Positions 1 to 57,267 of a stretch of 62,183 bases of DNA are shown piece after piece. The notes beneath the pieces are model-generated. The model made no database searches, was not told the origin of the DNA, and was given only the letters and a program-made list of their open reading frames with translations. Both the position numbers and the translations under genes were made by a program. Each line of letters starts with the position of its first letter. Within the stretch, counting starts at the first letter, position 1. Source of the stretch: a virus; IMG/VR virus record IMGVR_UViG_3300021962_009965, positions 1 through 62,183 of that record; one strand, written 5' to 3'.

Positions 1-932
1 ACGATCTATGTACTGACAACGGTAAAATCTACTTGGAAGTAGACTTACAAGTTCCAGTATGTGTTGAGTGTGGTCAAACTTCTCCTGATGGTTACACAGG
101 TTCAACATTCGAATCTACATCAGGTGATTCTAATGCGTTTGTTGCTGTTTACAGAAACTACGACAACTTAGAATTTGAAGATCAAATCGGTGAAGTTTCT
201 TTTGACCTTGAGTCAGTAACAGTATCTGTTACAGAAAGAAAACTTAGAGCTCAATGGTCTCCTGAATTGGCACAAGACGTTGCTGCATTCCACAACATTG
301 ACGCTGAAGCTGAATTGACAGCTTTGTTGTCTGAGCAAGTGGCTGCAGAAATCGACCGTGAAATCTTGAGAGACTTGAGAAAAGGTGCTGCATGGGATCT
401 ACGTTGGGACTACAACGGATGGAAGAGATTATCTTCTTCTGGTACTACTCCTTACACTCAGAAGGACTGGAACCAAACGTTGATCACAGCTATCAACCAA
501 CTTTCAGCTCAAATTCACAAATCAACTCTTAGAGGTGGTGCTAACTGGATCGTTGTATCTTCAGAAGTATCAGCTATCTTCGACGACTTGGAGTACTTCC
601 ACGTTTCTAACGCGGCTCCTGAACAGGATCAGTACAACATGGGTATCGAAAGAGTTGGAACATTGGCAGGTAGATACCAAGTTTACCGTGATCCATACTT
701 CCCAGCTAACCAAGTGTTGATCGGACACAAAGGAACTAGCTTGTTGGATACTGGTTACATCTACGCTCCATATGTACCTCTTCAGTTGACTCCAACTATG
801 TACAACCCATTCAACTTTACTCCTATCAAGGGTATCATGACACGTTACGCTAAGAAAATGGTTAACAACCGTTTCTACGGACGTATCACAGTTGATGGTG
901 TTAGAACATTCGACTTGAATGAATTGAGATAA
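1..932 (+). CDS. gp23: Major capsid protein, gp23-like (5' partial)
   Basis: C-terminal 310 or so residues of the T4-type major capsid protein that forms the hexamers of the head. The frame is open to the left edge (an in-frame reading DLCTDNGKIYLEVD precedes residue 33), so the TTG near base 33 is not the true start. The end of the protein, with TRYAKKMVNN and RFYGRI, matches the conserved C-terminal strand of gp23 proteins (TRYA motif). A strong terminator follows 20 bases after the stop, as expected for a very highly expressed late gene. Codon use is richer in C-ending codons than that of the glycosyltransferase genes, also in line with high expression. Protease cleavage of the N-terminus cannot be judged because that part lies outside the window. 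Confidence 0.88.
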   Translation, partial: DLCTDNGKIYLEVDLQVPVCVECGQTSPDGYTGSTFESTSGDSNAFVAVYRNYDNLEFEDQIGEVSFDLESVTVSVTERKLRAQWSPELAQDVAAFHNIDAEAELTALLSEQVAAEIDREILRDLRKGAAWDLRWDYNGWKRLSSSGTTPYTQKDWNQTLITAINQLSAQIHKSTLRGGANWIVVSSEVSAIFDDLEYFHVSNAAPEQDQYNMGIERVGTLAGRYQVYRDPYFPANQVLIGHKGTSLLDTGYIYAPYVPLQLTPTMYNPFNFTPIKGIMTRYAKKMVNNRFYGRITVDGVRTFDLNELR

Positions 933-1011: not shown

Positions 1012-1338
1012 ATGTCCACAGCTTGTGTTTGTAGAAGAGTAGGTATAAAAAATTTGATGCCAATAAAAACGTTGGTTATCAACTATAGTAGATGTTCGGA
1101 TGAATATGTTGTACAGAACTATTCGATCAGACCTGGAGAGACAAGAGAAATATGGTATTTGGTTGGATCTTTTAGTACAGCATTCCCATCATCTTCGTAT
1201 CAAGAAATTGACTACACATTATGGCCAGAAGGATGTGATATCCAACCGACACCAGAGGTTATTGAATATTTCATCTTATATGAAAATGGAAATATTATGA
1301 CGGCACAAAATAACAATGGTATAGAATACCAATATTAA
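1012..1338 (+). CDS. Hypothetical protein, possible small virion protein
   Basis: A 108-residue protein of unknown function. No family is recognised. It is beta-rich by appearance, has several Cys and ends in a polar tail. The ATG at 1012 is preferred because it follows the TATTTAT element by 14 bases; an internal ATG at 1057 is possible. It is followed 15 bases later by the collagen-like protein gene and probably shares its transcript, which suggests a role as a fibre- or head-associated protein. Confidence 0.6.
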   Translation: MSTACVCRRVGIKNLMPIKTLVINYSRCSDEYVVQNYSIRPGETREIWYLVGSFSTAFPSSSYQEIDYTLWPEGCDIQPTPEVIEYFILYENGNIMTAQNNNGIEYQY

Positions 1339-1353
1339 AACACATTTATTGCA

Positions 1354-4089
1354 ATGGCAAACCAAAAAATATCACAATTACCAAATTATTCAGGAAGTAC
1401 CACAGGTACTTGGTTAATTCTAAATGATTCAACTGAAACCAATACGTATAAGGTATTAACTACAGACATCGCTGGTACGTCTGGTACTAGTGGTAGTTCA
1501 GGTTATGGTTTTGATTGGAAAGGTGGGTGGTTACCCGACGTTAGTTATTTCAAAAATGATACAGTTTATTATGATTATACATCATATATTGCCGAACAAA
1601 ATATACCTGCGGGTCAATTACCACCTCCGTTGAATACTGATTGGTCAATCATTGCTGAATCAGGTACTAGTGGTAGTTCAGGATCTTCAGGTACTAGTGG
1701 TAGTTCAGGATCTTCGGGTACAAGCGGTAGTTCAGGATCTTCAGGTACAAGTGGTAGTTCAGGATCTTCAGGAACAAGTGGAACTAATGGATCTAGTGGA
1801 TCTAGTGGATCTTCGGGTACAAGTGGTACCTCTGGATCGAGTGGTTCTTCTGGTACTTCAGGTACAAGTGGAACTAGTGGTTCTTCTGGTACTTCAGGTA
1901 CAAGTGGAACTAGTGGTTCTTCTGGATCTTCAGGGACATCAGGATCAAGCGGAACTAGTGCCTCTTCAGGTACTAGTGGGTCTTCAGGTTCTTCAGGTAC
2001 TTCAGGTTCTTCAGGAACTTCTGGTACGTCAGGATCTTCAGGTTCTTCAGGTACAAGTGGAACTAACGGTACTTCTGGTTCTTCAGGTTCTTCAGGAACA
2101 AGTGGAACTAACGGTACTTCTGGTTCTTCAGGAACATCAGGATCGAGTGGTTCTTCTGGTTCTTCAGGAACTAGCGGGTCTTCGGGCACATCGGGAACTT
2201 CCGGATCTAGTGGTACTAGTGCTTCTTCAGGTAGTTCAGGTTCTTCAGGAACAAGTGGAAGTTCAGGTTCTTCAGGAACAAGTGGAAGTTCAGGATCTTC
2301 AGGAACAAGTGGAACAAATGGAACATCAGGTTCTTCAGGAACATCTGGTTCCTCAGGAACATCTGGTTCCTCAGGGACTAGTGGGTCTTCGGGTACATCA
2401 GGAACATCTGGTTCCTCAGGGACTAGTGCTTCTTCAGGTAGTTCAGGTTCTTCAGGAACAAGTGGAAGTTCAGGATCTTCAGGAACAAGTGGAACAAATG
2501 GAACATCAGGTTCTTCAGGAACATCTGGTTCCTCAGGGACTAGTGGGTCTTCGGGTACATCAGGAACTTCAGGATCTAGTGGAACTAGTGCTTCCTCAGG
2601 TAGTTCAGGATCTTCAGGTACCTCAGGATCTTCAGGTACAAATGGTAGTTCTGGTTCTTCAGGGACAAGTGGAACAAGTGGATCATCTGGAACATCTGGT
2701 TCTTCAGGAACTTCAGGATCTAATGGAACTTCAGGTACATCAGGGTCTTCAGGGACATCAGGAACTTCTGGTTCTAGTGGTATTAATGGAACGTCAGGTT
2801 CAAGTGGATCTTCAGGCACATCTGGTACTAATGGGACTAGTGGTAGTTCAGGCACCTCAGGATCTTCAGGTACAAGTGGATCTTCAGGAACGTCTGGTTC
2901 TAATGGAACTAGTGGTTCTTCAGGAACTTCAGGTTCTAGTGGTATTAATGGAACGTCAGGTTCAAGTGGAAGTTCCGGTACATCAGGAACAAATGGTTCA
3001 AGTGGATCCTCAGGAACTTCAGGTACAAATGGTTCTTCAGGAACTTCAGGTTCAAGCGGTACATCAGGAACTTCAGGTAATTCAGGAACAAGTGGAAGTA
3101 GTGGAACTTCAGGTTCTTCAGGAATAAATGGTACATCGGGTTCTAGTGGAACCTCAGGTTCTTCAGGTAATTCAGGAACAAGTGGTTCATCTGGAACTTC
3201 AGGTTCTTCAGGTAATTCAGGAACAAGTGGTTCATCTGGAACTTCAGGTTCTTCTGGTAATAATGGTACAAGTGGATCTAGTGGAACTTCAGGTTCTTCA
3301 GGAATAAATGGTACATCGGGTTCTAGTGGAACCTCAGGTTCTTCAGGTAATAATGGTACAAGTGGTTCCTCAGGAACATCAGGTACTTCTGGTTCTTCGG
3401 GTAATAGTGGGACTAGTGGATCTTCGGGTAATAGTGGTACAAGTGGTTCTAGTGGTTCTAGTGGGACTAGTGGATCTTCTGGTAATAGTGGGACTAGTGG
3501 ATCTTCGGGTAATAGTGGTACAAGTGGTTCCTCAGGAACTAGCGGAAGTTCAGGTTCAAGTGGAACTAGTGGTTCTTCAGGAAATCCAGGTACAAGTGGT
3601 TCTTCAGGTACTAGTGGTTCTTCAGGTACTTCAGGTTCAAGTGGTTCTTCAGGTACTTCAGGTTCAAGTGGTTCTTCAGGAACAAGTGGTGAATCAATTG
3701 GAAACCCATATGAAGGAATTGCAATTTGTGTTATTCCAGCAACAAGACTTTATGATGAATATGTTGCAAACAATAGTTTGAAAGATTCGTTTGTCGTAGT
3801 TCCAACCGATCTCGATGGTTGGAGTATTATTGGCGTGGAAACATCCTATGGATCCACTTACTCGGTTGATAACGCAGAGTTTACAATTCAAATGAGAGAT
3901 ACTAACTATTCAGTTGTTTCTTCTGCAGATTATACACATCCTGGAAATTCAAGGAATTATTCGTTTTCACCAACTACTCCAATTTCGGTTACACAGGGTT
4001 ATACATTGAATGTTGACTTACAAAGTGGAGGTCAATCTCCCGATGGTGAAGCAAGAGGATACACTGTAACCTTGACATTGACGCAATAA
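1354..4089 (+). CDS. Giant collagen-like (Gly-X-Y) repeat fibre protein
   Basis: A 911-residue surface or fibre protein. Residues 1-40 contain KISQLP, common at the N-terminus of phage fibre proteins. Residues 50-100 (WKGGWLPDVSYFKNDTV...) resemble the small chitin/carbohydrate-binding module of the CBM5/12 type, with spaced aromatics. Residues 104-779 are Gly-X-Y in perfect phase: 225 triplets, almost only GTS, GSS, GTN, GNS and GIN, with a single Pro and no Lys. Four triplets carry Ala in place of Gly (ASS). Residues 780-911 form a beta-rich C-terminal domain. The repeat could form a collagen-type triple helix or a polyglycine-II bundle. Low complexity at DNA level shows recent internal duplications. 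Exact location on the virion is unknown. Confidence 0.85.
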   Translation: MANQKISQLPNYSGSTTGTWLILNDSTETNTYKVLTTDIAGTSGTSGSSGYGFDWKGGWLPDVSYFKNDTVYYDYTSYIAEQNIPAGQLPPPLNTDWSIIAESGTSGSSGSSGTSGSSGSSGTSGSSGSSGTSGSSGSSGTSGTNGSSGSSGSSGTSGTSGSSGSSGTSGTSGTSGSSGTSGTSGTSGSSGSSGTSGSSGTSASSGTSGSSGSSGTSGSSGTSGTSGSSGSSGTSGTNGTSGSSGSSGTSGTNGTSGSSGTSGSSGSSGSSGTSGSSGTSGTSGSSGTSASSGSSGSSGTSGSSGSSGTSGSSGSSGTSGTNGTSGSSGTSGSSGTSGSSGTSGSSGTSGTSGSSGTSASSGSSGSSGTSGSSGSSGTSGTNGTSGSSGTSGSSGTSGSSGTSGTSGSSGTSASSGSSGSSGTSGSSGTNGSSGSSGTSGTSGSSGTSGSSGTSGSNGTSGTSGSSGTSGTSGSSGINGTSGSSGSSGTSGTNGTSGSSGTSGSSGTSGSSGTSGSNGTSGSSGTSGSSGINGTSGSSGSSGTSGTNGSSGSSGTSGTNGSSGTSGSSGTSGTSGNSGTSGSSGTSGSSGINGTSGSSGTSGSSGNSGTSGSSGTSGSSGNSGTSGSSGTSGSSGNNGTSGSSGTSGSSGINGTSGSSGTSGSSGNNGTSGSSGTSGTSGSSGNSGTSGSSGNSGTSGSSGSSGTSGSSGNSGTSGSSGNSGTSGSSGTSGSSGSSGTSGSSGNPGTSGSSGTSGSSGTSGSSGSSGTSGSSGSSGTSGESIGNPYEGIAICVIPATRLYDEYVANNSLKDSFVVVPTDLDGWSIIGVETSYGSTYSVDNAEFTIQMRDTNYSVVSSADYTHPGNSRNYSFSPTTPISVTQGYTLNVDLQSGGQSPDGEARGYTVTLTLTQ
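1663..3690 (+). repeat. Degenerate tandem repeat coding for GTSGSSG units
   Basis: About 2 kb of 9-18 base units (forms such as GGTTCTTCAGGAACAAGT). Synonymous positions vary, so the array is old, but long identical blocks recur: roughly 2231-2340 against 2428-2530, 2765 against 2935, and 3121-3170 against 3301-3350. This points to repeated unequal exchange. Phase is kept throughout. Confidence 0.9.
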
Positions 4090-4106: not shown

Positions 4107-5126
4107 ATGAGAACTTCGTTTGTAAAAGAGTTTTTTCCTTCGGCAACACCGACTTTAAGTCCAACACCTACAGTAACTCCTACTAGACCACCATTGTTAG
4201 GTGAAGTAATAAGGTGTGCCGATGGTCTAACATATTTGGTCGATTGGGCACCAGCATTCACTTCAATCCCAACTTTTACAAACGGAGTTACATATTTGTA
4301 TTTTTCTTCAGGTTCACTTCTCAATGGATGTTATACTATAGTACAAGGTGAAGAACCTCCATTCGGTACTCCAGTTGCGGTGATTGGTGACTATGTTGGT
4401 GATGATTCTACTTGTTTACAATGTACTGGTAAAACTCCAGTGACACCAACACCAACACCAACAAAAACTAAAACACCAACACCAACACTAACCAGAACCC
4501 CTACTGTAACACCAACTAGAACAAAGACACCTACCCCAACTCCGACTCCAACAACTCATTGTAGTTGTACAATTCAAACAAGTACAAATATAACAATTTA
4601 TGAAAGTATTGCTGGTACAACAGGGAATGCGTTATATCAAAATCTTACTGAATGGGAATCTTACTTAGTACCGTGTGATTCATTATACAATGCTTATACA
4701 GTTTTCAATGATAAACCATCCGTAACACAAAACACTACAGGTACCTACAATGCTAAGTCGTATAGTTATATGTTGTCATTTAGATATGTACAAACATCTG
4801 TAGCAACTACTAACTTACGTATTGCAATCGGACACGGAATCGATGGTGATTGTTCTTTTGGTGTGTACAACATTGCATCTCCGATAAATGGTCGATACTA
4901 TACAATCAGAGTTGATGTTAGAGACATTTCTTTATATGGAAACCAAATTAGGGCTCACATATCAACACCTGTATACTCGAGTTATAATTATTGTACGGGA
5001 ACACCAGGTGATGATGCTTGTTGCTATTCAACCGCATCGAATAATTTCCACCCAGGTATACCAAGAACTTGTCCAACATATATCAATGGATGTTTAAGTC
5101 AAATTGGTTATTGGTGTCCGTTTTAG
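4107..5126 (+). CDS. Thr/Pro-linker, Cys-rich surface protein
   Basis: A 339-residue protein of modular build: a short N-terminal tail, a first Thr/Pro linker (residues 13-30), a small globular domain (about 31-110), a second Thr/Pro/Lys linker (about 112-150) and a C-terminal domain of about 185 residues with ten or so Cys, including CSCT, DDACCYS and GCLSQIG. The same linker style occurs in the three large proteins at 31-38 kb, so it is probably an external virion protein (fibre or decoration). No enzyme motif is seen. It follows the collagen-like gene by 17 bases. Confidence 0.7.
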   Translation: MRTSFVKEFFPSATPTLSPTPTVTPTRPPLLGEVIRCADGLTYLVDWAPAFTSIPTFTNGVTYLYFSSGSLLNGCYTIVQGEEPPFGTPVAVIGDYVGDDSTCLQCTGKTPVTPTPTPTKTKTPTPTLTRTPTVTPTRTKTPTPTPTPTTHCSCTIQTSTNITIYESIAGTTGNALYQNLTEWESYLVPCDSLYNAYTVFNDKPSVTQNTTGTYNAKSYSYMLSFRYVQTSVATTNLRIAIGHGIDGDCSFGVYNIASPINGRYYTIRVDVRDISLYGNQIRAHISTPVYSSYNYCTGTPGDDACCYSTASNNFHPGIPRTCPTYINGCLSQIGYWCPF

Positions 5127-31004: not shown

Positions 31005-33347
31005 ATGGCTTATCAGAACATCAATCAATACGTCTATAATAAATGGTTTTTAAAACCAGTACAAGAAGTATCAGACCTTAGTTTAGCGTCAGATGAGAGA
31101 CAATACAACGAAGAAGTTGTATTCTCACCTAATTTAATCGGGGAGTTTGATGGGGATGTAATGCCAATCAAAATTGACCTTAATTTTTCAGGCTCCAATC
31201 AAGGATTTGAACTAAATTATCAAGATTACGATTACCAAAATGTATTAATTTCTGAAAATTATTTCAATCCATACGATCCTTTATTGGATTGTTTTTCTTC
31301 TCGTACAATATGTGACATTGGATTGACAGGTACTGATAATGGATTGGTTGATTGTATGAGTGGTCAGAGTATAGAGTATACCATGGGATTATTACCCGAC
31401 TCTCAGAAATTCGATAGGTACAAATACGACCGCAGATTCAAAATGTTCCAAGTAACAGGACACACATGGAATCCTAATCACAGATTTTCAGGTGTTACCG
31501 CCGGAACTCTATATAATATAGTATCATATGATTCTGCACAAATTGGAAAGTATCATGAATTATACGGAGGTTTCTATCAAGGGTTTTACAAATTATTTGG
31601 TTACGATTATGAAATATTACCAACAAGATATCCCAAAGGATGGACTGTTGAAATGACCCTAAAACCGAGACTTGGTAATATATACAATCCACAACCAGGA
31701 CAGACTACCCTGAACGACTATTATCCTGATAATTCAGGTATTTTCTTTTACATGGGTACTCGTGCTGAAAACAAATTTTGGCACGCCGCTGATGGTAAAA
31801 ACTCAGGTGATCCAAATTATGAAAGAGTTACAACACCACTTACAGGACTGAGTTCATGTATGTGTGAAATATTAAATTCAGGGTACACAACGACTTCTTA
31901 CACTCATTTGGATATTAGAGTGTCTGGTGGCACGATCACCGTTGAACCCAAGTTGTTGTGGCAAGCTGGTGATGAAGTTGTAATTTATCATGATGTTTTA
32001 GAATACATCGAGGGTGTTGTAGAAAGTTATGACCCAGTTGGTGGACAAATGAAGTTTGTGTCAACCAAAAATGTGGGTAAAGGTGACTTCCCATATTGGA
32101 GGGTAGACAAACCAAATTACTTGGAATACGCCGAATCATATTGTGTAAAAGTATACCCTGAAACAGGATATACAAGTGGACACAGTGTTACATATTGTAG
32201 TTGTTGTGTTCCACCACCACCAACGCCAAAACCCGAACACGATCCATTATTTGACTCAATGTCAAACGCATTCGCCATAAGATTCAGTGGTGATCCTGCC
32301 AATCCTAAAATCTGTGTCAGAACTCTAACTTTCACGGGAGATTGTGTGACAACAGGTGCTTGTGAGACCATAGGGTTTGAAAGTCAAACAGGGTATTCTA
32401 TAAACAACTACTGTTCGACACGTGGTATATACGATGATTGTTTGGGTACAGAGTATCTGACTCAAGAACACTGGGTATTGGTAGATGCAGTATTTGAGAG
32501 GTACACATGGATGGACTTCTGTGATTTATATTATAGAGGGGGTCTTGGTGTGATATCAAACTTAGTTTACACCGCATCTACCGCAAATAATTCTGTATCA
32601 CTTATTCAACCACCGATTACTCATAACCAAGTAAATCCTGTCCAAGAAGAACTTGTGGAATTGAATTACGATTGGTTACTCGAGGAGTTTTATCGTCGTG
32701 GTAAATTAAAACTTTACGTGAACGGTCGTCACTTCGAAACCTTTGATAATTTCGAAGAGATAATTCCAAGAGGATTATACGGACACAAAGAAACTCAAGT
32801 AGGTGTACCGTTCAATATATCTTGGGGTGGTGGAACTCAGGGTCTTCACGAAAACTTGGTTTTCTCAGCCATGCCACAGACTTTTTGTGGTGAATACATT
32901 CAGGATCCTGAACTGTTTCCTGATAATATTCTCAGTGGGACCACTCTTAGTGGTTTGACAACGAACATTTTGTTGGAAAAATATTTTGCCGGAACTTTTG
33001 ATGGTGCAATTTCAACATTCCACATGTATGCCAAACCACTATCGGTTCCTGAAATTCAACACAATGCCAAGCTTCTGTATGACCAATATGATTTGTTGAA
33101 TCCTTATTGTCTGAATTGTAGTATCATAGATAATTGTGATTTGGATTGGAATTTTGTGGAAGTTAGTAATACACCTACCCCAACTCCGACACAAACCCCT
33201 CAGGATACTCCACCACCAACTCCGAGTGTCACTCCTACTCAGTTCGCGAGTCCAACTCCAACACCATCCGTTACGCCAACAATAACTCCAAGTTCAGGAG
33301 AATGTCCTGAATCCATATTTATGTTTATACCAAACTTACCATGTTAG
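31005..33347 (+). CDS. Large virion surface protein with lectin-like region and Thr/Pro tail
   Basis: A 780-residue protein. Residues 1-200 are a tail-fibre-like N-terminal part with many Tyr/Asn; residues 205-300 (WTVEMTLKPRLGN...SGIFFYMGTRAEN) resemble a concanavalin/LamG-type beta-sandwich, and a second such area includes LKLYVNGRHFETF and FDGAISTFHMYAKPLS, typical of LamG ends. Cys-rich segments occur around 385-400 (YCSCCVPPPP). The last 60 residues are a Thr/Pro mucin-like stretch. First gene of a three-gene fibre operon. Probable host-binding or decoration protein; precise location unknown. Confidence 0.7.
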   Translation: MAYQNINQYVYNKWFLKPVQEVSDLSLASDERQYNEEVVFSPNLIGEFDGDVMPIKIDLNFSGSNQGFELNYQDYDYQNVLISENYFNPYDPLLDCFSSRTICDIGLTGTDNGLVDCMSGQSIEYTMGLLPDSQKFDRYKYDRRFKMFQVTGHTWNPNHRFSGVTAGTLYNIVSYDSAQIGKYHELYGGFYQGFYKLFGYDYEILPTRYPKGWTVEMTLKPRLGNIYNPQPGQTTLNDYYPDNSGIFFYMGTRAENKFWHAADGKNSGDPNYERVTTPLTGLSSCMCEILNSGYTTTSYTHLDIRVSGGTITVEPKLLWQAGDEVVIYHDVLEYIEGVVESYDPVGGQMKFVSTKNVGKGDFPYWRVDKPNYLEYAESYCVKVYPETGYTSGHSVTYCSCCVPPPPTPKPEHDPLFDSMSNAFAIRFSGDPANPKICVRTLTFTGDCVTTGACETIGFESQTGYSINNYCSTRGIYDDCLGTEYLTQEHWVLVDAVFERYTWMDFCDLYYRGGLGVISNLVYTASTANNSVSLIQPPITHNQVNPVQEELVELNYDWLLEEFYRRGKLKLYVNGRHFETFDNFEEIIPRGLYGHKETQVGVPFNISWGGGTQGLHENLVFSAMPQTFCGEYIQDPELFPDNILSGTTLSGLTTNILLEKYFAGTFDGAISTFHMYAKPLSVPEIQHNAKLLYDQYDLLNPYCLNCSIIDNCDLDWNFVEVSNTPTPTPTQTPQDTPPPTPSVTPTQFASPTPTPSVTPTITPSSGECPESIFMFIPNLPC

Positions 33348-35656
33348 ATAGTGCCTTACTGAATAAGATTACTGCAGAACTTCATGAGTCGACATCTGAT
33401 AATGTTGTGATGGTTGGTTATGGTGCAAAAAAGACAAATGGTGTTTATACTGATGAATTGGGTTTAGTTTTCGGAGTTTTGCAGAAAAAACCAATCCAAG
33501 AATTATTACCTGAAGATATTATTCCAAAAGAAATCGAAAGAGACGGTCATAAATTCATAACGGATGTTATTGAGTTCGAAATACCTAATTTGGTTCAGGC
33601 GTGTCCTCCACCATTTTATAATTGGATTACAACACCTCCTGGTAACAGAGGTTTGATCAGACCTATCCAAGGTGGAGTGTCAACTACCAACGTAACAAGT
33701 ATGTCTAACTCTGTGGGTACTTTGGGTTTTGTTGCCGTAGATAATGATACAAACTCAGTTTGTGGTGTAACAAATGCTCACGTAATTATTGACGATCCCT
33801 TTATTGATAGCGATAGAACGTTACCAAATCCAATCACAAATGTTGTTAATGATTTGGTTATTCAACCAGGCTGGGAAAATTCTTCTTTCGTTGGAACACA
33901 AAACGCGGTTGGTATTGTAAAAAAATATTTACCTCTGAGAGAGAGTTCACCAAACTATGTGGATACCGCTATTTTCACTTTGAATGAATCTGATGTTTCA
34001 AATACTGTTTCGTACAAACAATTTGGAATGACAGGTTGGACAGGTCCTATGGACTTTGCGACAACTTCCGAGTTGAATAGTATTACACCTTTTCAAAAGT
34101 ATCTATTCTCTTCAGGTAGAACCACAGGTGCCAAAGGGGAGGATGATATGAAATTAATCCCTTCATTAAAAAATGCTGTAATACCTGTTTTTGGGTATAG
34201 TAATCAAGGGGTTGGTAAACTAGTTAATTTTTACGGTGTGACTGAGTTTGTGGCGTCAGCATCGACTACCCCGACAAACAACATTTGTCAATACCCCATA
34301 TATGGAGGTGATTCGGGGTCTGCGGTGGCTGCCGAGTTTTCGGGTAATAGAAAAATTGTGGGACAAGCTTTTGCTGCAAGTACATACTATGGGTATTACA
34401 TACCAATTGATGCTATTGTGTCCGCTTTAAATATTTCACCATATACTGGACAAACAGCATGCTGGTCGGATACCGGAAATACACAAATACACTTGGTCGT
34501 TGGACGAAGTAATCAAAATACCATTACTATAGGTGGTAATACGTATTGGCAGGGAGGATTGGTGGATTGTCCTACCGTAAGTTCTACACCTACACCAACA
34601 CCTACAATTACAAATACACCTGAACCAAGTTCTGAGCCTGGGGTTTCTCCAACTCCAACACCCACGAACACTCTAACACCAAGTCCTTCGGGAAATCCTG
34701 AAGATTGTTGTCGTAGTTTTGTTATAGATGTAAGTTATTATGAATGTAGTGGTGTCACATTGTCCTACATTGATTGTGCCGATAATCTACAAACTCAACA
34801 ATTTGCACCAAATTCCCTGACTACAATATGTGCAAGACCAAATACTATAACCATCATTCCATCATCGTTGAGTTGTGATGTTCAAATCATTAGTCAAGGT
34901 GATTGTGATTGTATCATACCTATAACATCCACACCCACACCTACACCAACTGTTACTCAAACTCCTTCATCGACTTTGACTCCGACACCAACTCCGAGTA
35001 CAACACCTGATTTTACTCCAACTCAGACTCCAACAAATACACCAACACCGTCACCATCACCACCGTGTTGTTCTACTTGGAATGTTTATTCTCAGATACC
35101 AAATACATATACTATAATCAATTGTGATGGTAGTGTTGATGTTGTAAGTTATGGTGCATTTTATGCTTTCACAGTGTGTGCATTCAGCGTAACAGCACAA
35201 TTCATAGTAAATACATATATAGACCTTCAATATCCTTGTGAGTGTTGTTTACCAATAACTAATACTTCAATTACCACAACTGTACTTGATACACCTAATG
35301 CCAGTTCTTTTTCTAGAGGTACTGCGGTTGTTGGTCTTTGGAACGGAACCTCAATATATTCAAATACGGGAAGTGTTGCTAAAGCATCAGGTAATGTTAC
35401 AACTTCAGTAGCTGGTGATTTAGGGGATGGTTATGATGAGTGTATAAGAGGTGGTATAGAAGTAACAGCATTTATACCAAGTGGTGTTCCAGGATCTACC
35501 GGATATAGAACTCAAATCATTGTGACCAAAAATGGTTTTCCAATCGGAACTGTGACTAGTGGTCCGAATCCAACAGGGTCTAACGTAACTCAGACATTTA
35601 ATTTCAATCGTAATAGTAATGATGTAATAAATGTAGAATTCAATAGTATTATATAA
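33341..35656 (+). CDS. Virion protein with trypsin-like serine protease domain and mucin-like linkers
   Basis: A 771-residue protein. Residues 1-100 resemble the leader of bacterial and phage trypsin-like proteins. Residues 110-370 carry a complete chymotrypsin-type triad: His147 in GVTNAHVI, Asp208 in NYVDTAIF and Ser325 in YGGDSGSAV, plus an oxyanion-type glycine context. Residues 420-450, 530-590 are Thr/Pro linkers separating two small Cys-rich domains, and a C-terminal beta domain ends the protein. No signal peptide. It overlaps the upstream gene by 7 bases. Could process other virion proteins or host surface proteins, or act as an adhesin built on the protease fold. Confidence 0.8.
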   Translation: MLDSALLNKITAELHESTSDNVVMVGYGAKKTNGVYTDELGLVFGVLQKKPIQELLPEDIIPKEIERDGHKFITDVIEFEIPNLVQACPPPFYNWITTPPGNRGLIRPIQGGVSTTNVTSMSNSVGTLGFVAVDNDTNSVCGVTNAHVIIDDPFIDSDRTLPNPITNVVNDLVIQPGWENSSFVGTQNAVGIVKKYLPLRESSPNYVDTAIFTLNESDVSNTVSYKQFGMTGWTGPMDFATTSELNSITPFQKYLFSSGRTTGAKGEDDMKLIPSLKNAVIPVFGYSNQGVGKLVNFYGVTEFVASASTTPTNNICQYPIYGGDSGSAVAAEFSGNRKIVGQAFAASTYYGYYIPIDAIVSALNISPYTGQTACWSDTGNTQIHLVVGRSNQNTITIGGNTYWQGGLVDCPTVSSTPTPTPTITNTPEPSSEPGVSPTPTPTNTLTPSPSGNPEDCCRSFVIDVSYYECSGVTLSYIDCADNLQTQQFAPNSLTTICARPNTITIIPSSLSCDVQIISQGDCDCIIPITSTPTPTPTVTQTPSSTLTPTPTPSTTPDFTPTQTPTNTPTPSPSPPCCSTWNVYSQIPNTYTIINCDGSVDVVSYGAFYAFTVCAFSVTAQFIVNTYIDLQYPCECCLPITNTSITTTVLDTPNASSFSRGTAVVGLWNGTSIYSNTGSVAKASGNVTTSVAGDLGDGYDECIRGGIEVTAFIPSGVPGSTGYRTQIIVTKNGFPIGTVTSGPNPTGSNVTQTFNFNRNSNDVINVEFNSII

Positions 35657-35657
35657 T

Positions 35658-38285
35658 ATGAGTCAGGTAGGAGTTCTAATAAGTAGTGATAATTTCAACG
35701 GACAGACGGGTAAGGTTTTATTTAAGAACTTTTCAAATCAAGTTATCGATTTGGGTTATCAGACACTACCATTTGTATATTCACCTGTAGATGGTGTTGT
35801 ACAAGGAATCTATTTCATTTATTTCTCATCTACCAGTGAGACCTGTTTGGTTGTAATTGGTCAACCTAACCCATCACCCACACCAACTCCAACACCAACA
35901 ATGACTCCATCACCATCACCTGACAACGGTGTTGTGTATTCATACATCAATCCAGGATCGGTTGTCATAGATTATGTTGCAAGTTTGGAGAAAGTATTTT
36001 CAGGTGATGTTTCATTTGGGTTAGTTCAAAAATTATCCTTTGAACCAAACATTACGGAATATATTGTTACCAATTATGAATTCTTGTCAGGGTCTACAAG
36101 TGGTACCACACAGGTAGTCTTAAGTGGAAAAAGTTTTGATAATGTTGTAAGAAATACGGAATTTGAATTTTTTGATGTCAATCCATCAGGATTTGTATTG
36201 AATGCCACACCAATATTTGCATCAGCAACGCCAACACCAACTCCGACTATTACTGAAACACCAACACAAACACCTACAAATACGCCCACTGTAACACCAA
36301 CAATTACTGAAAGTCAAACTCAAACCCCGACTCAAACTCCTACTCTATCACCAACTCCGACGATTACTGAAAGTCCAACACCTTCCGTTACTCCGACTTC
36401 AACGTTGACACCTACTGTCACTCCTAGTATAACCATGTCTGAAACACCAACACAGACACCTACACCTACATTATCAGTAACACCAACATCAAGTCTTACG
36501 CCAACTATTTCTGAAACTCCTACCCAAACACCTACCCCAACTATTTCTGAAACTCCTACCCAAACACCAACATCGACACTAACTCCAACTATTACAGAGT
36601 CACAAACTCCTACACCAACTATAACACCTACTAGTGATCCGACACAAACTCCTACTCAAAGTGAAACCCCTACTCCTACGCCTACAATTTCTGAAACTCC
36701 AACTCAGACTCCTACACCTACAATTTCTGAAACTCCAACTCAGACTCCTACACCTACAATTTCTGAGACGCCAACTCAGACTCCTACACCTACAATTTCT
36801 GAGACACCTACGCTTACCCCAACTTCAACTTTGACAGAAACTCCAACTCCAACGTCAACATTGACTCCGACTGTAACTCCTACAGAGACGGTAACACAAA
36901 CCCCATCTGAAACTACTACTCAGACACCGACTCCTACTATTTCAGAAACACCTACTCAAACGCCTACTCCTACTATTTCAGAAACACCCACTCAGACGCC
37001 TACACCAACAATTTCTGAAACTCCTACTCAAACGCCTACACCAACAATTTCTGAAACACCTACTCAGACGCCTACACCAACAATTTCTGAAACTCCTACT
37101 CAAACGCCTTCGGTTACGCCAACTTGTGGAATTTTCACTCAACAATATCTTAGAGTTAGATTATTAGGTTGTACTAATTTTGATTTAACATTATTTGATG
37201 ATCCATCGTTTACTATAAATGCGAATGCTGTTTGTGATTATGTTGTTTCTGGATGTGCTTACGGTGATTTGGGTACAGTATATTGTGGAACTGAAACAAT
37301 TGCGTCGGGAGATCATGTACATACATTTAACTTGAGTCCTGTATTACAACCTGGAGAATGTGTCACAGGATTCACAGTAAGCAATGTTGTACCTCAATGT
37401 CCGTGTGTCAATGTAACTTTTGTTGATGTTTCACCAACACCAACACCTACTCCAACCATTACTGACACGCCAACACAAACACCAACACTCACTACAACTC
37501 CAAGTTTGACACCAACACTAACACCTTCTCCAACTCAGGCAGTTATCCCATCAGACCCAACACTTGAAATTTATTATCAGGGTAGTTTAGCAACTTACTA
37601 CACACCAACACCTGATAGTGGTGATACATTTACTCAGTGGGTTGACTCGTCATCGAGCGCGCATAATGCGAATGCCATTTGTGGGTCATGTAAACCTGAG
37701 TGGTGGAGTAATGTTCAAAATGGTTTGGGTGGTACCTATTACGATGGAATATCGATGGGATCTAGTGTGAATCCTCTTACAGATTTAGCGGCTAAATCAG
37801 GTGAAACTATAATAGTAGTTGCTCGTGTGTTAAATACTGGTGCTACGGAACAATATATCCAAGGAGGATCTGATGGAAACACTGGTTTGGATTCTGTATA
37901 TCTGAGACAAAGTGGTGGAACATATAATATTGCTGAAGCAGGTGGATTTGGGGTTGTATCAGGCACCCCAGTAGATTTAAATTCCCATATTTTTTCTATC
38001 GTATTCAGTGGTAGTGGAACAAATAATTCTGACAGACTAAAATTCAGAATTGATTCTGTTGAACAGACTATGACATTTACTTCAAATGTGGGAACAACGA
38101 CTTCAGCTCTTACAGATTATATATTTATGGGTGTATCTTACACTCCACAAGCGGCAGGCACCACACAATTCTATTACAATGGATTTTTGTTGGACGTTTT
38201 AGTCTATAGCCGAGCACTCGATTCATTTGAACTGGATGCAATAGAATCCTATTTATCAAATAAATGGGCAATACCTCTATTGTAA
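35658..38285 (+). CDS. Mucin-like Thr/Pro repeat protein with lectin-like C-terminus
   Basis: An 875-residue surface protein. Residues 1-185 are two small beta domains joined by a Thr/Pro linker. Residues 190-487 are a nearly pure Thr/Pro/Ser/Glu stretch with tandem 12-residue units TISETPTQTPTP. Residues 490-590 form a Cys-containing domain, a second Thr/Pro linker follows (595-635), and residues 640-875 resemble a concanavalin A-like lectin domain (ARVLNTGATEQYIQGG; C-terminal LDAIESYLSNKW, a typical ending). Reads as stalk plus carbohydrate-binding tip. Ser/Thr density makes it a natural target for O-glycosylation. Confidence 0.8.
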   Translation: MSQVGVLISSDNFNGQTGKVLFKNFSNQVIDLGYQTLPFVYSPVDGVVQGIYFIYFSSTSETCLVVIGQPNPSPTPTPTPTMTPSPSPDNGVVYSYINPGSVVIDYVASLEKVFSGDVSFGLVQKLSFEPNITEYIVTNYEFLSGSTSGTTQVVLSGKSFDNVVRNTEFEFFDVNPSGFVLNATPIFASATPTPTPTITETPTQTPTNTPTVTPTITESQTQTPTQTPTLSPTPTITESPTPSVTPTSTLTPTVTPSITMSETPTQTPTPTLSVTPTSSLTPTISETPTQTPTPTISETPTQTPTSTLTPTITESQTPTPTITPTSDPTQTPTQSETPTPTPTISETPTQTPTPTISETPTQTPTPTISETPTQTPTPTISETPTLTPTSTLTETPTPTSTLTPTVTPTETVTQTPSETTTQTPTPTISETPTQTPTPTISETPTQTPTPTISETPTQTPTPTISETPTQTPTPTISETPTQTPSVTPTCGIFTQQYLRVRLLGCTNFDLTLFDDPSFTINANAVCDYVVSGCAYGDLGTVYCGTETIASGDHVHTFNLSPVLQPGECVTGFTVSNVVPQCPCVNVTFVDVSPTPTPTPTITDTPTQTPTLTTTPSLTPTLTPSPTQAVIPSDPTLEIYYQGSLATYYTPTPDSGDTFTQWVDSSSSAHNANAICGSCKPEWWSNVQNGLGGTYYDGISMGSSVNPLTDLAAKSGETIIVVARVLNTGATEQYIQGGSDGNTGLDSVYLRQSGGTYNIAEAGGFGVVSGTPVDLNSHIFSIVFSGSGTNNSDRLKFRIDSVEQTMTFTSNVGTTTSALTDYIFMGVSYTPQAAGTTQFYYNGFLLDVLVYSRALDSFELDAIESYLSNKWAIPLL
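36681..37115 (+). repeat. 36-base tandem repeat (TPTISETPTQTP units)
   Basis: Two clusters of 36-base units (about 36681-36800 and 36930-37115) with form ACACCTACAATTTCTGAAAC, differing mostly at synonymous sites. The repeats keep frame. Likely to vary in number between related phages by slippage or unequal exchange. Confidence 0.85.
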
Positions 38286-38393: not shown

Positions 38394-39641
38394 ATGAAAA
38401 TTTTTGTTCAAATTGCTTCTTATAGGGATCCACAGCTTATCCCTACAATCAAAAACATGTTAGAAAACGCCAAAAGACCAAAAAATCTTAGAATCGGTGT
38501 TGCACGACAATTTCATCCTGACGATAAATTCGATGATTTGTCCGAGTTCGAAAAGGATAACCGTTTCAGAATTTTAAACATTCCTCACGAAGAGGCTGAA
38601 GGTGTATGTTGGGCACGAAATTTAGTTCAACAATTGTATCAAGATGAAGAATACACACTTCAAATTGATTCTCATATGAGATTTGCACCAAATTGGGATG
38701 ATGAGATGATTAAGATGGTAAAACAACTTCAGAAAAAAGGTTACAAAAAACCACTTTTGACAGGTTATGTATCCTCATTTGACCCCGATAATGACCCTCA
38801 AGGAAGGGTTCAAGAACCTTGGAGAATGGTTTTTGATAGATTTATTCCGGAGGGTGCAGTATTTTTCCTACCCGAGACAATTCCTGGTTGGAAAGATATG
38901 AAACAACCAGTACCTGCAAGATTTTATTCAGCTCACTTTGCATTTACTATAGGTCAATTCTCAAAAGAAGTCCAACATAATCCCGAATACTACTTCCACG
39001 GGGAAGAAATATCTATCTCTGCAAGAGCCTATACTTGGGGATATGACTTGTTTCACCCACATAAAGTTCTAATTTGGCATGAATATACTAGAAAAGGTAG
39101 AACCAAACAATGGGATGATGATAAAAAATGGGTTGATAGAAATAATAAGTCCCACCTACTAAATAGAAAATTATTCGGTATGGATGGTCTTGAACAAGAA
39201 GGTCACGAAGATTTTTTTGGTTTCGGTCCTGAAAGAAGTTTGAGAGATTATGAAAAGTATGCGGGGTTATTATTCGAAAAAAGAGCAGTACAACAGTACA
39301 CTTTGGATAAAAATTATCCACCAAACCCGTACAACTATGAAACTGAGGATGAATGGAAGAAAAACTTTGCGTCAGTATTTAAACATTGTATTGATATCAA
39401 TTATTCTTCGGTACCTGAAAAAGACTATGAATTTTGGGTTGTTGCGTTCCACGGGGCAAATGATGAGACTCTCTTTAGAAAAGATGCTGACATCAATGAA
39501 ATTCAACGTATTATGAATGACCCTGATGGTTACGGAAAAGTGTGGAGAGAATTCCAAACAGAAAGCAAACCAGCATATTGGGTTGTTTGGCCATTCTCAA
39601 CATCTAAGGGATGGTGTGAGAGAATTACAGGTAATTTATAA
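38394..39641 (+). CDS. GlcNAc-transferase-like (Skp1/GT60-type)
   Basis: A 415-residue protein. Its N-terminal half is a close match in pattern to the GlcNAc-transferase family that modifies Skp1 hydroxyproline: IFVQIASYRDPQLIPT at the start, EGVCWARNL (residues 70-77), LQIDSHMRF (Asp92-His94 in place of DxD) and later FHGEEISISARAYTWGYD with the conserved Glu-Glu. Such enzymes add a sugar to a hydroxyl on protein; bacterial members are uncharacterised. The C-terminal 130 residues are specific to this protein. First gene of an operon of six. Confidence 0.8.
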   Translation: MKIFVQIASYRDPQLIPTIKNMLENAKRPKNLRIGVARQFHPDDKFDDLSEFEKDNRFRILNIPHEEAEGVCWARNLVQQLYQDEEYTLQIDSHMRFAPNWDDEMIKMVKQLQKKGYKKPLLTGYVSSFDPDNDPQGRVQEPWRMVFDRFIPEGAVFFLPETIPGWKDMKQPVPARFYSAHFAFTIGQFSKEVQHNPEYYFHGEEISISARAYTWGYDLFHPHKVLIWHEYTRKGRTKQWDDDKKWVDRNNKSHLLNRKLFGMDGLEQEGHEDFFGFGPERSLRDYEKYAGLLFEKRAVQQYTLDKNYPPNPYNYETEDEWKKNFASVFKHCIDINYSSVPEKDYEFWVVAFHGANDETLFRKDADINEIQRIMNDPDGYGKVWREFQTESKPAYWVVWPFSTSKGWCERITGNL

Positions 39642-39643
39642 TA

Positions 39644-40354
39644 ATGGTTACGTTTGATGGTAAAAAAATTGCCGATATTGGTTATTTCATCAATTTAGAT
39701 GAAAGAACGGATAGACGTGAAAAATTAGAATCACAACTTTCTAAATTCAAGATAGAAGGTGTAGAAAGGGTATCAGCGAACAAAAACACAGATTCCGGAC
39801 CTACAAATTGTAAAAGAAGTCATTTTGACTTATTACAAAGATTGGTAGATTCCGACCATGAAACTTTGTTAGTTTTGGAAGATGATTGTTTGTTTTTGGA
39901 TTTTTTAATAGAGGAGTCAAACGAGATTTTTGATAATATAAACAAAACTGAATGGGATTTGTTTTGGTTAGGTTGTAGAAACAGAAGGACACCATTATTA
40001 AGAGAAAATAATTGTTACGAAGTATCTTCGGTTTCTCATGCTCAATCTTATCTAATAAAAAAAGATTTTGCAAAGCACATTTTGGAAAAATATCCAATAT
40101 ATCCACATGATAATCACAATAACGTTCCGATTGATGAATTGTTAACTCTGAGCGTTTATGGATACAATGTGGTTTCCAACCCAAGCAGTGTGAATTTTTA
40201 TAATTTGGATCAACCTTTGGATGTCTTAGAAAGACATTTCACCGCTCTTTGTTATGAGAAATCACTAACAACACAATATTCTTCATATAGTAATCTATGG
40301 CATTATGAAACTCATTGGGAAGAATATATAATCAGATCATTTCCTAAGTGGTAA
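39644..40354 (+). CDS. GT25-family glycosyltransferase
   Basis: A 236-residue GT25 protein. FINLDERTDRREKL (residues 16-29), a VLEDDCLF motif (Glu79-Asp80-Asp81) and SHAQSYLIKK are the standard signature. GT25 includes bacterial LPS galactosyltransferases and the animal collagen galactosyltransferase (COLGALT). It starts 2 bases after the previous stop. Donor most likely UDP-hexose; acceptor unknown, with collagen-like phage proteins as one candidate. Confidence 0.85.
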   Translation: MVTFDGKKIADIGYFINLDERTDRREKLESQLSKFKIEGVERVSANKNTDSGPTNCKRSHFDLLQRLVDSDHETLLVLEDDCLFLDFLIEESNEIFDNINKTEWDLFWLGCRNRRTPLLRENNCYEVSSVSHAQSYLIKKDFAKHILEKYPIYPHDNHNNVPIDELLTLSVYGYNVVSNPSSVNFYNLDQPLDVLERHFTALCYEKSLTTQYSSYSNLWHYETHWEEYIIRSFPKW

Positions 40355-40357
40355 TAT

Positions 40358-41095
40358 ATGAAATTAATAAGTGTCACTTGGTCATACGGGGATGAATCTC
40401 ATATTGAAGAAACAATCCTCTATAGAAGTTTTATTAAACACAATAATGAGAAAGATTTTATCAATATTCATTACAATCGAACAAATTTCGAGGAATTAGA
40501 AAAAGAGTTTCATTCCAAGTTCGGATATCAATATGAATTTTTGTTATATAGAATTTTTTTGTTATCTGACCGACTAAAGTCTATTGATGATGATGTATTT
40601 ATTTTTTCTGACACGACTGATGTTGTTTGCATTGGAAACATAAATGATATTGATTATACAGGTGGGATTATTTTCTCTGCCGAAAGACATCAATACCCTA
40701 ATGATATTTCAAGTTGGAAACCCATAAACAAATACCCTCAAGAAAACTTAGATAAATCTAATTTCTTGAATGCAGGACTTCAGATGAGTGAGAAAAATTT
40801 GTATTTAGATTTTTTGGAATCTGTTATTGAACACGTTTTTCCAATTGAATATAAAACATTTGGTGGAGATCAAGGTGTATTTATCTATTATTTTATAAAT
40901 GAATTTTCTCCAAAAATCACTTTGGATACTAGTCGTAATATATTTGTAAGTACTTATTTGACAAGTGCGGAGTCGTATAAAACCAATGATGGAAAAGTAC
41001 AATACATTCCCACAAATTCATTTCCATTTTTTATTCATGATAATGGTTGGAATTATGGAAGTCCAAGAATAATTGAAAGGTATAGCTTAATATGA
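40358..41095 (+). CDS. PLOD-type glycosyltransferase-like protein (paralogue 1)
   Basis: A 245-residue GT-A protein resembling the glycosyltransferase domain of lysyl hydroxylase/PLOD proteins. Visible: IFSDTTDVVCIG (Asp85, Asp88; DxxD metal site), IIFSAERHQYP (PLOD has VFSAENxCWP), NFLNAGLQM and GGDQGVFIYYF (DQ). The Fe/oxoglutarate hydroxylase domain of PLOD is absent. In animals this domain transfers glucose to galactosyl-hydroxylysine of collagen. Overlaps the next gene by 4 bases. Confidence 0.72.
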   Translation: MKLISVTWSYGDESHIEETILYRSFIKHNNEKDFINIHYNRTNFEELEKEFHSKFGYQYEFLLYRIFLLSDRLKSIDDDVFIFSDTTDVVCIGNINDIDYTGGIIFSAERHQYPNDISSWKPINKYPQENLDKSNFLNAGLQMSEKNLYLDFLESVIEHVFPIEYKTFGGDQGVFIYYFINEFSPKITLDTSRNIFVSTYLTSAESYKTNDGKVQYIPTNSFPFFIHDNGWNYGSPRIIERYSLI

Positions 41096-41823
41096 AAAAC
41101 GCAATAATTTCTACATACTACTGTCTTGGATGTCAGGAGCCCTCAAAGATTGAATGTAAAACACGTTTTGCATATGATATCGATGATGAGGATTTTTATC
41201 TAAATTTTAGTAATGATTTCAATCCATTTGATTTCTCAAATATTACTGATGTCGGTGTTAGTAAAAGAAAAGATCTAGTCTTTGGTAAAATTTTTAGATT
41301 GAGAAAATTTATCGAAGATAAAATTTTAGGGAAATACGACAACTTATTACATATTGATTATTCTGACACTAAGTTTGCAAGAAGTAGTAAAGAATTATTT
41401 GATAATTTTCATCAAAGTGGGAAGGAAATAGTAATATCAACCGAAAAAAATTGTTGGCCTTATCTTGACTCAGTATCCAATTGGTTTGAAACCAAACTAC
41501 CACAAAAAGAATTCTTTTATGTGAATTCAGGAGCTGTTATATCAAATACAAACCGATTTTATCAAATACTTAAAGAACTTGAATTGATTTGTTTGAATTC
41601 AAACATAGATTTTTGGGACGATCAAGGAGTATGGCAATATTATAATTTGAAAGAAAATAACCTCAGTAAGGATCTGAACTCGGAATACTTTTTTTCAACC
41701 GCCGAGTTGGATGAAACTTACTATAAATTTGAAAACGGTGTTATCACCACAAAGTTTGGAACTCAACCTTACTTGATACATGATAATTCAAGTTTTTCAC
41801 TAAACCTAATAAGAAAAATTTAA
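41092..41823 (+). CDS. PLOD-type glycosyltransferase-like protein (paralogue 2)
   Basis: A 243-residue relative of the preceding gene. HIDYSDTKF (Asp89, Asp92) is the metal site, IVISTEKNCWPY (residues 113-124) matches the SAENxCWP block even better than paralogue 1, followed by FYVNSGAVIS and DFWDDQGVWQYY (Asp176-Asp177-Gln178). Only one base separates it from the methyltransferase-like gene. The two copies have diverged strongly and may use different acceptors. Confidence 0.75.
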   Translation: MKNAIISTYYCLGCQEPSKIECKTRFAYDIDDEDFYLNFSNDFNPFDFSNITDVGVSKRKDLVFGKIFRLRKFIEDKILGKYDNLLHIDYSDTKFARSSKELFDNFHQSGKEIVISTEKNCWPYLDSVSNWFETKLPQKEFFYVNSGAVISNTNRFYQILKELELICLNSNIDFWDDQGVWQYYNLKENNLSKDLNSEYFFSTAELDETYYKFENGVITTKFGTQPYLIHDNSSFSLNLIRKI

Positions 41824-41824
41824 T

Positions 41825-42433
41825 ATGAGTGTTTCGGGACATTTTGTTTATAAGGGGTTAACTATCATGCAACACCCCAATGTAGAAAAGGCTTTTGAAG
41901 AGCTTTTGATTGATCTAAAACCAACGAAAGTGTTGGAGATTGGAACATCATCAGGAGGGCTTACTCTGATGATTAGAGATATTTTGGATAGAGTTGGTCT
42001 ATCAGATACACGTTTAGTTACCTACGATGTATATGAACCACAATATCTTAGACACCACGTAAATGATGGTGCAAACATCGAAATTAAAGTTAAAAACGTA
42101 TTCAACCACCAATATTCTGATTTGGAAAATGGTCAAGAAATTATTGATTTTATAACTTCCGAGGGTACTACCTTAGTTTTGTGTGATGGAGGAAGTAAGA
42201 AAAATGAGTTTAGAATTTTATCTAACTTATTAAAAGTAGGTGATGTGATTATGGCACACGATTATTCCCCAAATGAAACTTATTTCAGAGAATTCGTCCA
42301 TGATACAATTTGGAGTTGGTTAGAAATTCAAGATAGTGATATCGAAGGTCCCTGTCAATTAAATAATTTGGAAGGTTATCTTCATGAAACATTCAAAAAT
42401 GTCGTTTGGGCATGTAGAAAAAAAATGAAATAA
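41825..42433 (+). CDS. SAM-dependent methyltransferase-like protein
   Basis: A 202-residue Rossmann protein. KVLEIGTSSGGLTLMI is the SAM-binding glycine loop (motif I), RLVTYDVYEP contains the acidic ribose-binding residue, and TLVLCDGGSKKNEF with VGDVIMAHDYS fit class I methyltransferases of the type found in antibiotic and LPS loci (cephalosporin hydroxylase-like). May methylate a sugar hydroxyl on the glycan made by its operon neighbours. Confidence 0.72.
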   Translation: MSVSGHFVYKGLTIMQHPNVEKAFEELLIDLKPTKVLEIGTSSGGLTLMIRDILDRVGLSDTRLVTYDVYEPQYLRHHVNDGANIEIKVKNVFNHQYSDLENGQEIIDFITSEGTTLVLCDGGSKKNEFRILSNLLKVGDVIMAHDYSPNETYFREFVHDTIWSWLEIQDSDIEGPCQLNNLEGYLHETFKNVVWACRKKMK

Positions 42434-42434
42434 G

Positions 42435-57100: not shown

Positions 57101-57267
57101 GAGACCGTGGTCTTTACGACTTTAGAGTAACAGTTTCTAATGATCCTGCTGACTTGGATAGAAATACGATGACAGGTAAGATTTACTTGAAACCAACAAA
57201 GGCTCTTGAATTCATCGATATCGAATTCTTGATCACCCCAACTGGTGCTTCGTTTGAGAATATCTAA
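54103..57267 (+). CDS. gp18: Contractile tail sheath protein, gp18-like
   Basis: A 1054-residue sheath protein. Start MAVSNKIFVSPGVYTSE and LGLVGETQIGPAF are conserved in T4-type sheath proteins. The C-terminal domain carries the polymer-forming part: LTQDQRDTLYQGRINPIA, TVIWGNKTLQ, INVRRLLLQARKLI and YDFRVTVS. T4 gp18 has 659 residues; the extra 400 lie in the middle (about 150-600), with Thr/Ser/Gly-rich beta segments, and should form outward protrusion domains. Late codon use is similar to the capsid gene. Followed by a terminator. Confidence 0.92.
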   Translation: MAVSNKIFVSPGVYTSERDLSFVAQSVGVTTLGLVGETQIGPAFEPIFITNYSEFEAFFGGTLPEKFENTQIPKYELAYIAKSYLQQSNQLFVTRVLGLSGYDAGPSWSLLTVANVDPSTVTLDGVETPFSIGFTGCSGGTAVTFTTDGAFAPQILTNLNSPYPMLNGGESTIEDDLSDFLQGILDLPSSSGTSAAYFGTISDATYNALSPTYTASTNVFGVSGLSESTADYTSPNNDSWYYSNFDLTGGTGYSGYSFVSLVDTLVPFGPSGCFSGTVSGSVFNYVGTAYDGWGDLVVATWRSRGISLYATGQHGPSYTVTGTTDVIIDCSGIYSGITFNPYATFNLSGVTADGTDFSFATSMNSGDANYITKVFGTTNFGKPRNEVPLFIEEQFQNMLNYGYNQGFIRGLQCAPLALPGLRYSPNTATIANYVEKYQDAESPWVVSELNGTSVDRLFRIISIADGNGANAQIKISIENISFNNSSFDVGVRSFYDTDSNPVYLEKFTQCTMDPSSNSYVGVKIGTADGEYALLSKYIMLELNDKVDPTSVPAGFEGYVIRSYASAQPPYPVYKTAYNYPGEVIGNPPFNIPYGPNQILSPGDNIRRTFLGISSSIGYDPDFFQYKGKQAPSNLCNVDALPWNYVTKGFHMDSGATVVTITAGPTAGTPAFDCGDTSFQSDPQDPANPYYTIQSRKFAFLLQGGFDGWDIYREYRTNDDRYQIGGSLWQRGACQSTRYPLADGWGAFKLIAQDGFAEFSTSDYYAYLLGISTFNNPEAVNINVFATPGIDYINNSNLVEQAIDMVTYQRADSLYIVTTPDCNLLLPTNTDNIVPPTEAVDNLNNTGIDSNYTATYYPWILTRDTVNNTQIYIPPTNEVCRNLALTDNISFPWFATAGYTRGLVNAIKARIKLTQDQRDTLYQGRINPIATFSDVGTVIWGNKTLQIADTALNRINVRRLLLQARKLISAVAVRLLFEQNDAKVRQDFLDSVNPILDAIRRDRGLYDFRVTVSNDPADLDRNTMTGKIYLKPTKALEFIDIEFLITPTGASFENI

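Follow-up and report, generated by a model that had tools for sequence, protein, structure and literature searches.

A long, nearly proline-free Gly-X-Y fibre encoded next to the major capsid gene of an uncultured virus: a candidate collagen-like stalk

The collagen triple helix is stabilized mainly by imino acids and ion pairs, and even three consecutive Pro-free triplets are uncommon in animal collagens (PMC13138384). Both stabilizers were missing across 226 Gly-X-Y triplets of a fibre protein encoded in the 62,183-nucleotide stretch of viral DNA analysed here (the window). The locus raises the question of how a rod of this composition could remain folded.

The open reading frame of the fibre extended beyond the repeat at both ends. 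As read from the sequence, the gene was shown to be modular, with the N-terminal peptide, a short Gly-X-Y piece, the WKG module, the long Gly-X-Y run, and the C-terminal domain following each other in this order (Table 1). The conserved N-terminal peptide is likely the anchor, and the C-terminal domain is likely a trimer cap or a receptor-binding head. The latter had no match in cultured phages, Pfam, PHROG or PDB; its AF2 model, built from three sequences, was β-rich but of low confidence (pLDDT 48), and the model of the N-terminal domain, built from four sequences, was of low confidence too (pLDDT 45).

Table 1. Features of the fibre locus and of the glycosyltransferase region in the window.
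Feature	Position	Strand	Details and basis
Major capsid protein gp23, truncated at the window start	3..932	+	Pfam PF07068, E 1e-63; phrog_138; full-length 613-aa frame in L053
orf108, small conserved protein between gp23 and fibre	1012..1338	+	Comparison with relatives
Gly-X-Y fibre gene	1354..4089	+	911 aa; PF01391, 304 bits (largely compositional); phrog tail-fibre families
N-terminal peptide MANQKISQLP...TTDIA	1354..1473	+	Kept in 8 same-slot orthologues
Short Gly-X-Y piece GTSGTSGSSG, 10 residues	1474..1503	+	Sequence
WKG module, ~54 aa, non-repetitive, between two Gly-X-Y stretches	1504..1662	+	Homology to VR26 module
Main Gly-X-Y run, 226 triplets (222 G + 4 A)	1663..3696	+	X = S/T/N/I/E, Y = S/N/P; sequence
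Ala for Gly, GCC, context unlike the other three	1960..1962	+	
Ala for Gly, GCT	2221..2223	+	
Ala for Gly, GCT	2428..2430	+	
Ala for Gly, GCT	2590..2592	+	
Recent internal duplication	2260..2537	+	98-nt exact copies 2260-2357 and 2440-2537, offset 180
C-terminal domain, ~130 aa	3697..4086	+	47-49% identity to L172 and L173, two independent contigs
PT-repeat protein downstream of fibre	4107..5126	+	Sequence; similar N-termini in post-fibre genes of L172 and L173
Three large proteins containing mucin-like PT-repeat stretches, directly upstream of glycosyltransferase cluster	31005..38285	+	Sequence
PF11397 (GT60-type) glycosyltransferase	38394..39641	+	E 1.3e-68; association with PT repeats; may O-glycosylate Thr-rich proteins of the virion
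Glyco_transf_25 family protein	39644..40354	+	E 2e-8
GT_PLOD-domain protein	41092..41823	+	E 3e-9; elsewhere in G023 only

The phase of the main run was unbroken over 225 triplets to 3687, and a final GES extended it to 226. The X position contained 106 Ser, 105 Thr, 10 Asn, four Ile and one Glu, and the Y position contained 208 Ser, 17 Asn and one Pro. Thus Thr never occurred at Y, and Thr, Ile and Glu were all confined to X, an asymmetry that the preliminary description did not mention, nor did it mention the short Gly-X-Y piece, the WKG module and the C-terminal domain. The only Pro among the 678 residues lay in a GNP triplet (3580-3588), and the only charged residue was the Glu of the last triplet, with no Lys, Arg or Asp. 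The perfect phase and the near absence of Pro claimed in the preliminary description were therefore verified, and its expectation of a weak normal collagen helix was reasonable, since a helix stabilized by imino acids is not expected where Pro is nearly lacking. Gly at every third residue over a long run, as in PF01391 proteins, was found at 222 of 226 positions; imino acids at X and Y, the usual trait of these proteins, were not (1 Pro in 678 residues). Imino acids are usual in this family, though they are no strict requirement.

The 226 triplets were encoded by 67 distinct 9-mers, and the entropy at the third codon positions was 1.3-1.4 bits, compared with 0 and 0.13 bits at the two fixed Gly positions. 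Because the 9-mers and the third positions are diverse while positions 1 and 2 of the Gly codon are fixed, the repeat pattern is maintained in the protein and does not reflect identical copies of DNA. The eight orthologues found in the same slot contained no residue other than Gly at the first position of 1044 triplets, with 12 residue types at X, and Ser (908), Asn (106), Asp (22), Ala (4), Phe (2) and Pro (2) at Y. Some distant relatives, such as L006 and L023, tolerated more non-Gly residues, and L049 contained, from its base 3, a run of 978 Gly-X-Y triplets with about 13% of the Gly positions substituted, mostly by Ser and Asn.

In collagens, Leu and Glu are known to prefer the X position and Gln the Y position. 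Among distant low-Pro runs (121 runs, 18178 triplets), Thr (95%), Leu (94%), Ile (90%) and Glu (79%) were placed at X, and Asn (99%), Asp (97%) and Gln (86%) at Y, while the Pro residues of Pro-bearing relatives occurred 229 times at X and 8 times at Y. Collagen-like X/Y preferences, with general knowledge as the benchmark, were thus present in both the low-Pro runs and the Pro-bearing relatives. These data bear on the possibility that the run is disordered and serves as a hydrophilic entropic linker or bristle, whose Gly phase is a by-product of the tandem duplication of a unit of at least 9 nt. The Ser, Gly, Thr and Asn composition is typical of flexible linkers and duplications are demonstrable (exact copies of 98 and 73 nt), but a linker needs neither the Gly constraint nor the X/Y constraint. 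With Gly invariant in the orthologues despite diverged synonymous sites and the variety of residues at X, and with Thr, Leu, Ile, Asn and Asp strongly restricted to one of the two positions, we consider a linker quite unlikely.

Long runs of this type are common in the viral collection, one sample of which contained 50 low-Pro runs with 100 triplets or more, and long runs like that of the window were absent from cultured phages in a protein search with low-complexity filtering on. A bacterial source of the repeat was rejected, as none of 13 bacterial or archaeal genome hits had a long G-[ST]-[SN] run. No statement on Pro-free viral Gly-X-Y proteins was found in the open-access papers searched.

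The order gp23-orf108-fibre recurred in eight other viral contigs. The whole fibre gene was contained in two of them, with 260 triplets in L172 and 207 in L173, and the other six ended inside the repeat. Assemblers thus do struggle with this region, and the possibility was considered that the repeat is chimeric or collapsed and its Ala sites are false. This explanation is hardly credible, because the longest exact repeat was 98 nt, the frame stayed open to the conserved C-terminal domain, and L172 and L173 closed independently with the same architecture. As an ordinary short read exceeds 98 nt and the frame closes into a conserved domain, the order of the triplets in the assembly is probably correct; the copy number is fragile, since six of eight orthologous contigs end inside the repeat, and may be affected by assembly. 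In several other relatives of gp23 the slot after the capsid gene had no fibre. In the fibre-less relatives examined that have an orf108 homologue (L094, L097, L098, L099 and L112), this homologue carried a Thr/Pro-repeat tail. With this tail in place of the fibre, the slot seems to accept different low-complexity stalks, as if two kinds of stalk replaced each other there. Flavobacterium phage immuto and Microcystis phage Mel-JY01, the nearest cultured capsid relatives, had no Gly-X-Y fibre in the region read after gp23.

The four Ala codons were each found in the context GTS-ASS and were spaced by 87, 69 and 54 codons (29, 23 and 18 triplets), exactly as first described. The preliminary description had suggested either the copying of one variant or planned kinks. 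The sites at 2221, 2428 and 2590 shared an identical context of 36 residues; the 90 nt upstream of 2428 and 2590 were identical at a fraction of 0.89 and the 90 nt downstream of 2221 and 2428 at 0.84, compared with 0.78 for the 99th percentile of all in-phase pairs. Exact internal repeats reached 98 nt and 73 nt, whereas a null with shuffled synonymous codons reached at most 37 nt. The sequence of these three sites fits the copying of one lineage-specific variant, but the site at 1960, with its other context, is not clearly a copy. No Ala occupied a Gly position in the 1044 triplets of the eight same-slot orthologues, so the Ala sites were seen only in the virus of the window and planned kinks were rejected. 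The comparison of Ala sites and repeat number among relatives, which had been proposed as a check for assembly artefacts, did reveal differing Ala sites, but the differences were between different viruses.

The closest cultured parallel, found via the WKG module, was the collagen triple helix repeat protein of VR26/VR25, a T4-like Escherichia phage. The modules of the window and VR26 aligned over 54 collinear columns with 37% identity (hhalign E 6e-9). Both proteins contained an N-terminal peptide, Gly-X-Y, the WKG module, again Gly-X-Y, and a β-type C-terminal domain, and both were encoded in the head region. The Gly-X-Y of VR26 differs in being Pro-rich (GPQ, GDT, GLT) with Lys, Asp and Glu, and homology between the N- and C-terminal domains of the two proteins was not detectable. 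Since the module of VR26 lies inside classical GPQ/GDT collagen, the Ser/Thr repeat of the window occupies the place of ordinary collagen. The apparent matches of the repeat in PDB (collagen I, and the "spindlefibril/axialfibril" entry 8zxl) were inspected and reflected the Gly phase only.

Linkage to a capsid gene, as for a head fibre or decoration protein, was evident from the recurring gene order and from VR26, whose collagen gene lies among head genes with a neighbor annotated as Hoc-like head decoration. On the basis of the gp23 neighbor and this parallel beside Hoc, the fibre would more probably be attached to the head than to the tail. This location rests on gene order and is opposed by the PHROG families, which label similar proteins as tail fibres. 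Among 42 C-termini of related low-Pro Gly-X-Y ORFs, six were Peptidase_S74 fibre chaperones, and the PHROG matches of these related C-termini were tail fibre or spike; the S74 domains were found in distant relatives and not in the fibre of the window. A further large protein of the window (54103-57267, + strand; 1054 aa) matched tail sheath only at residues 766-1052 and had an N-terminal extension of 765 aa.

Collagen trimers of phages are already known, namely EPclA (PMC3368898) and SPP1 gp12 (PMC7602432). In SPP1 gp12 the collagen-like sequence belongs to a head-bound trimer that decorates the capsid (PMC7602432, PMC5292684), but its C-terminal part is rich in α-helix (PMC5292684). The prophage side tail fibres EPclA and EPclB also have a collagen stalk in a trimeric fibre, with the EPclA trimer backed by CD (PMC3368898); they differ in that Pro is frequent at X and 22% of the residues are charged, compared with about 0.1% of each in the run of the window. 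The bacterial Scl1/2 and BclA proteins likewise have unhydroxylated Gly-X-Y stalks with globular ends (PMC8968730). On average, Pro makes up 19-31% of the X residues of bacterial collagens and Thr 32-48% of the Y residues (PMC8968730); the Gram-positive ones have 31% and 48%, respectively, whereas the run of the window has no Pro at X and Thr at X only.

The preliminary description had also offered a polyglycine-II or other bundle. In a polyproline-II or polyglycine-II bundle, of the snow-flea antifreeze or S16 gp38 type, antiparallel segments would pack together and no three-chain rod would form. Low-Pro Gly-X-X repeats do form polyproline-II bundles, T-even adhesins contain polyglycine-II sandwiches (PMC12892980), and an untwisted triple helix resembles such a bundle (PMC11869133). 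The Gly-rich part of the S16/PP01 gp38 adhesin is also from T4-like phages (PMC12892980), but it consists of short motifs flanking variable loops, whereas short Gly-rich segments alternating with loops were not found in the fibre of the window, where one run continued uninterrupted over all 226 triplets. No turn or loop sequence recurred in the 678 residues, which made the bundle the less likely option. The run length was free (207, 226 and 260 triplets, and more than 800 in distant relatives) with no quantized unit seen, and the Ala sites, being unconserved, cannot be obligatory turns. Together with the collagen-like X/Y bias and the homology to VR26, which favor a trimer, these findings make a bundle very unlikely.

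From these comparisons we infer, with somewhat better than even confidence, a homotrimeric collagen-like stalk on the virion surface, probably on the head, with a possible role in adhesion or in coating the surface. The 911-aa protein would be present in three copies that form a parallel triple-helical stalk of the collagen type, about 190 nm long (678 residues at ~0.286 nm each). The C-terminal domain would nucleate the stalk and form its tip, the conserved N-terminal peptide would attach it to the particle, and the WKG module would lie near its base. With neither imino acids nor ion pairs present, the stalk would be stabilized by the packing of Gly and by the hydrogen bonds and ordered water that polar Ser, Thr and Asn side chains provide, and a low melting temperature would be tolerated. 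Imino-poor stretches of collagen take up 10/3 symmetry (PMC13138384). In-frame duplication and deletion of triplet blocks would let the repeat number drift, so that the length of the stalk differs among relatives, and the four Ala sites would be defects that the stalk tolerates, two or more of which were spread by duplication. O-glycans may be an extra on the stalk.

In a variant of this model, the same trimeric stalk is O-glycosylated at Thr and Ser by phage enzymes, the GT60-type enzyme adding the first sugar on Thr and other enzymes extending it, and the sugars give stability and a hydrophilic coat as in the cuticle collagen of Riftia. The window encodes at least five glycosyltransferase-like proteins besides the PF11397, GT25 and GT_PLOD proteins. 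The GT60 enzyme of T. cruzi adds α-GlcNAc to mucin Thr (PMC3769586, PMC9472816). PMC6953826 cites a stabilizing effect of Thr-glycans on collagen, and PMC8968730 describes BclA as glycosylated. A Gly-X-Y fibre gene is immediately followed by the GT60 gene in L013-L015. However, in a set of 27 viral records, each 95 kb or longer and de-duplicated by eye, the TPTPTPTP motif was present in 16 of 16 records with GT60 and in 0 of 11 without it (p 8e-8, inflated by shared ancestry), whereas collagen matches were found in 12 of 16 with and 7 of 7 without GT60 where collagen was searched (Fisher p 0.27). Two records of 343-373 kb (G003 and G004) had Pro-free Gly-X-Y fibres and no GT60, which is therefore not required, and Thr in bacterial collagens is mainly at Y (PMC8968730) but at X in the run of the window. 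The glycosylated stalk is thus unlikely.

As GT60 tracks PT repeats and not collagen matches, the PT-repeat proteins are the likelier substrates, and glycosylation of the fibre as the purpose of GT60 was not supported. The association suggests a phage-encoded, mucin-like O-glycosylation of PT-repeat proteins, which is better supported than glycosylation of the fibre, itself possible. The co-occurrence of GT60 and TPTPTPTP (38394-44105 in the window; G001-G030 and W01-W02) included the cultured jumbo phages XacN1 and RAS14. GT_PLOD as a collagen-modifying enzyme was also rejected, as G023, a same-slot relative, was the only one to share it and the repeat contains no Lys. Elsewhere in the window, the protein at 33341-35656 (+ strand) matched a PHROG protease family at its N-terminus and continued into PT-repeat stretches, and 10407-30964 (- strand) encoded more glycosyltransferases, a GDP-mannose dehydratase, PhoH and a PfkB-type kinase.

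The collagen-like stalk, if formed as proposed, has a wider meaning. Natural collagen-type triple helices of at least 200 consecutive triplets with neither imino acids nor ion pairs, held by hydrogen bonding of Ser, Thr and Asn and by water, or by O-glycans added by the phage, may be widespread in uncultured T4-like and other viruses; we put this forward tentatively, at rather less than an even chance. The rules of the triple helix derive from sequences rich in Pro/Hyp or in charge, and both features are lacking in the dozens of natural Gly-Thr-(Ser/Asn/Asp) runs, 100-900 triplets in length, that viruses provide. These runs would represent either a third way of stabilizing collagen or another kind of Gly-repeat rod, and both outcomes would be relevant to the design of protein fibres and to how uncultured phages reach or stick to their hosts.
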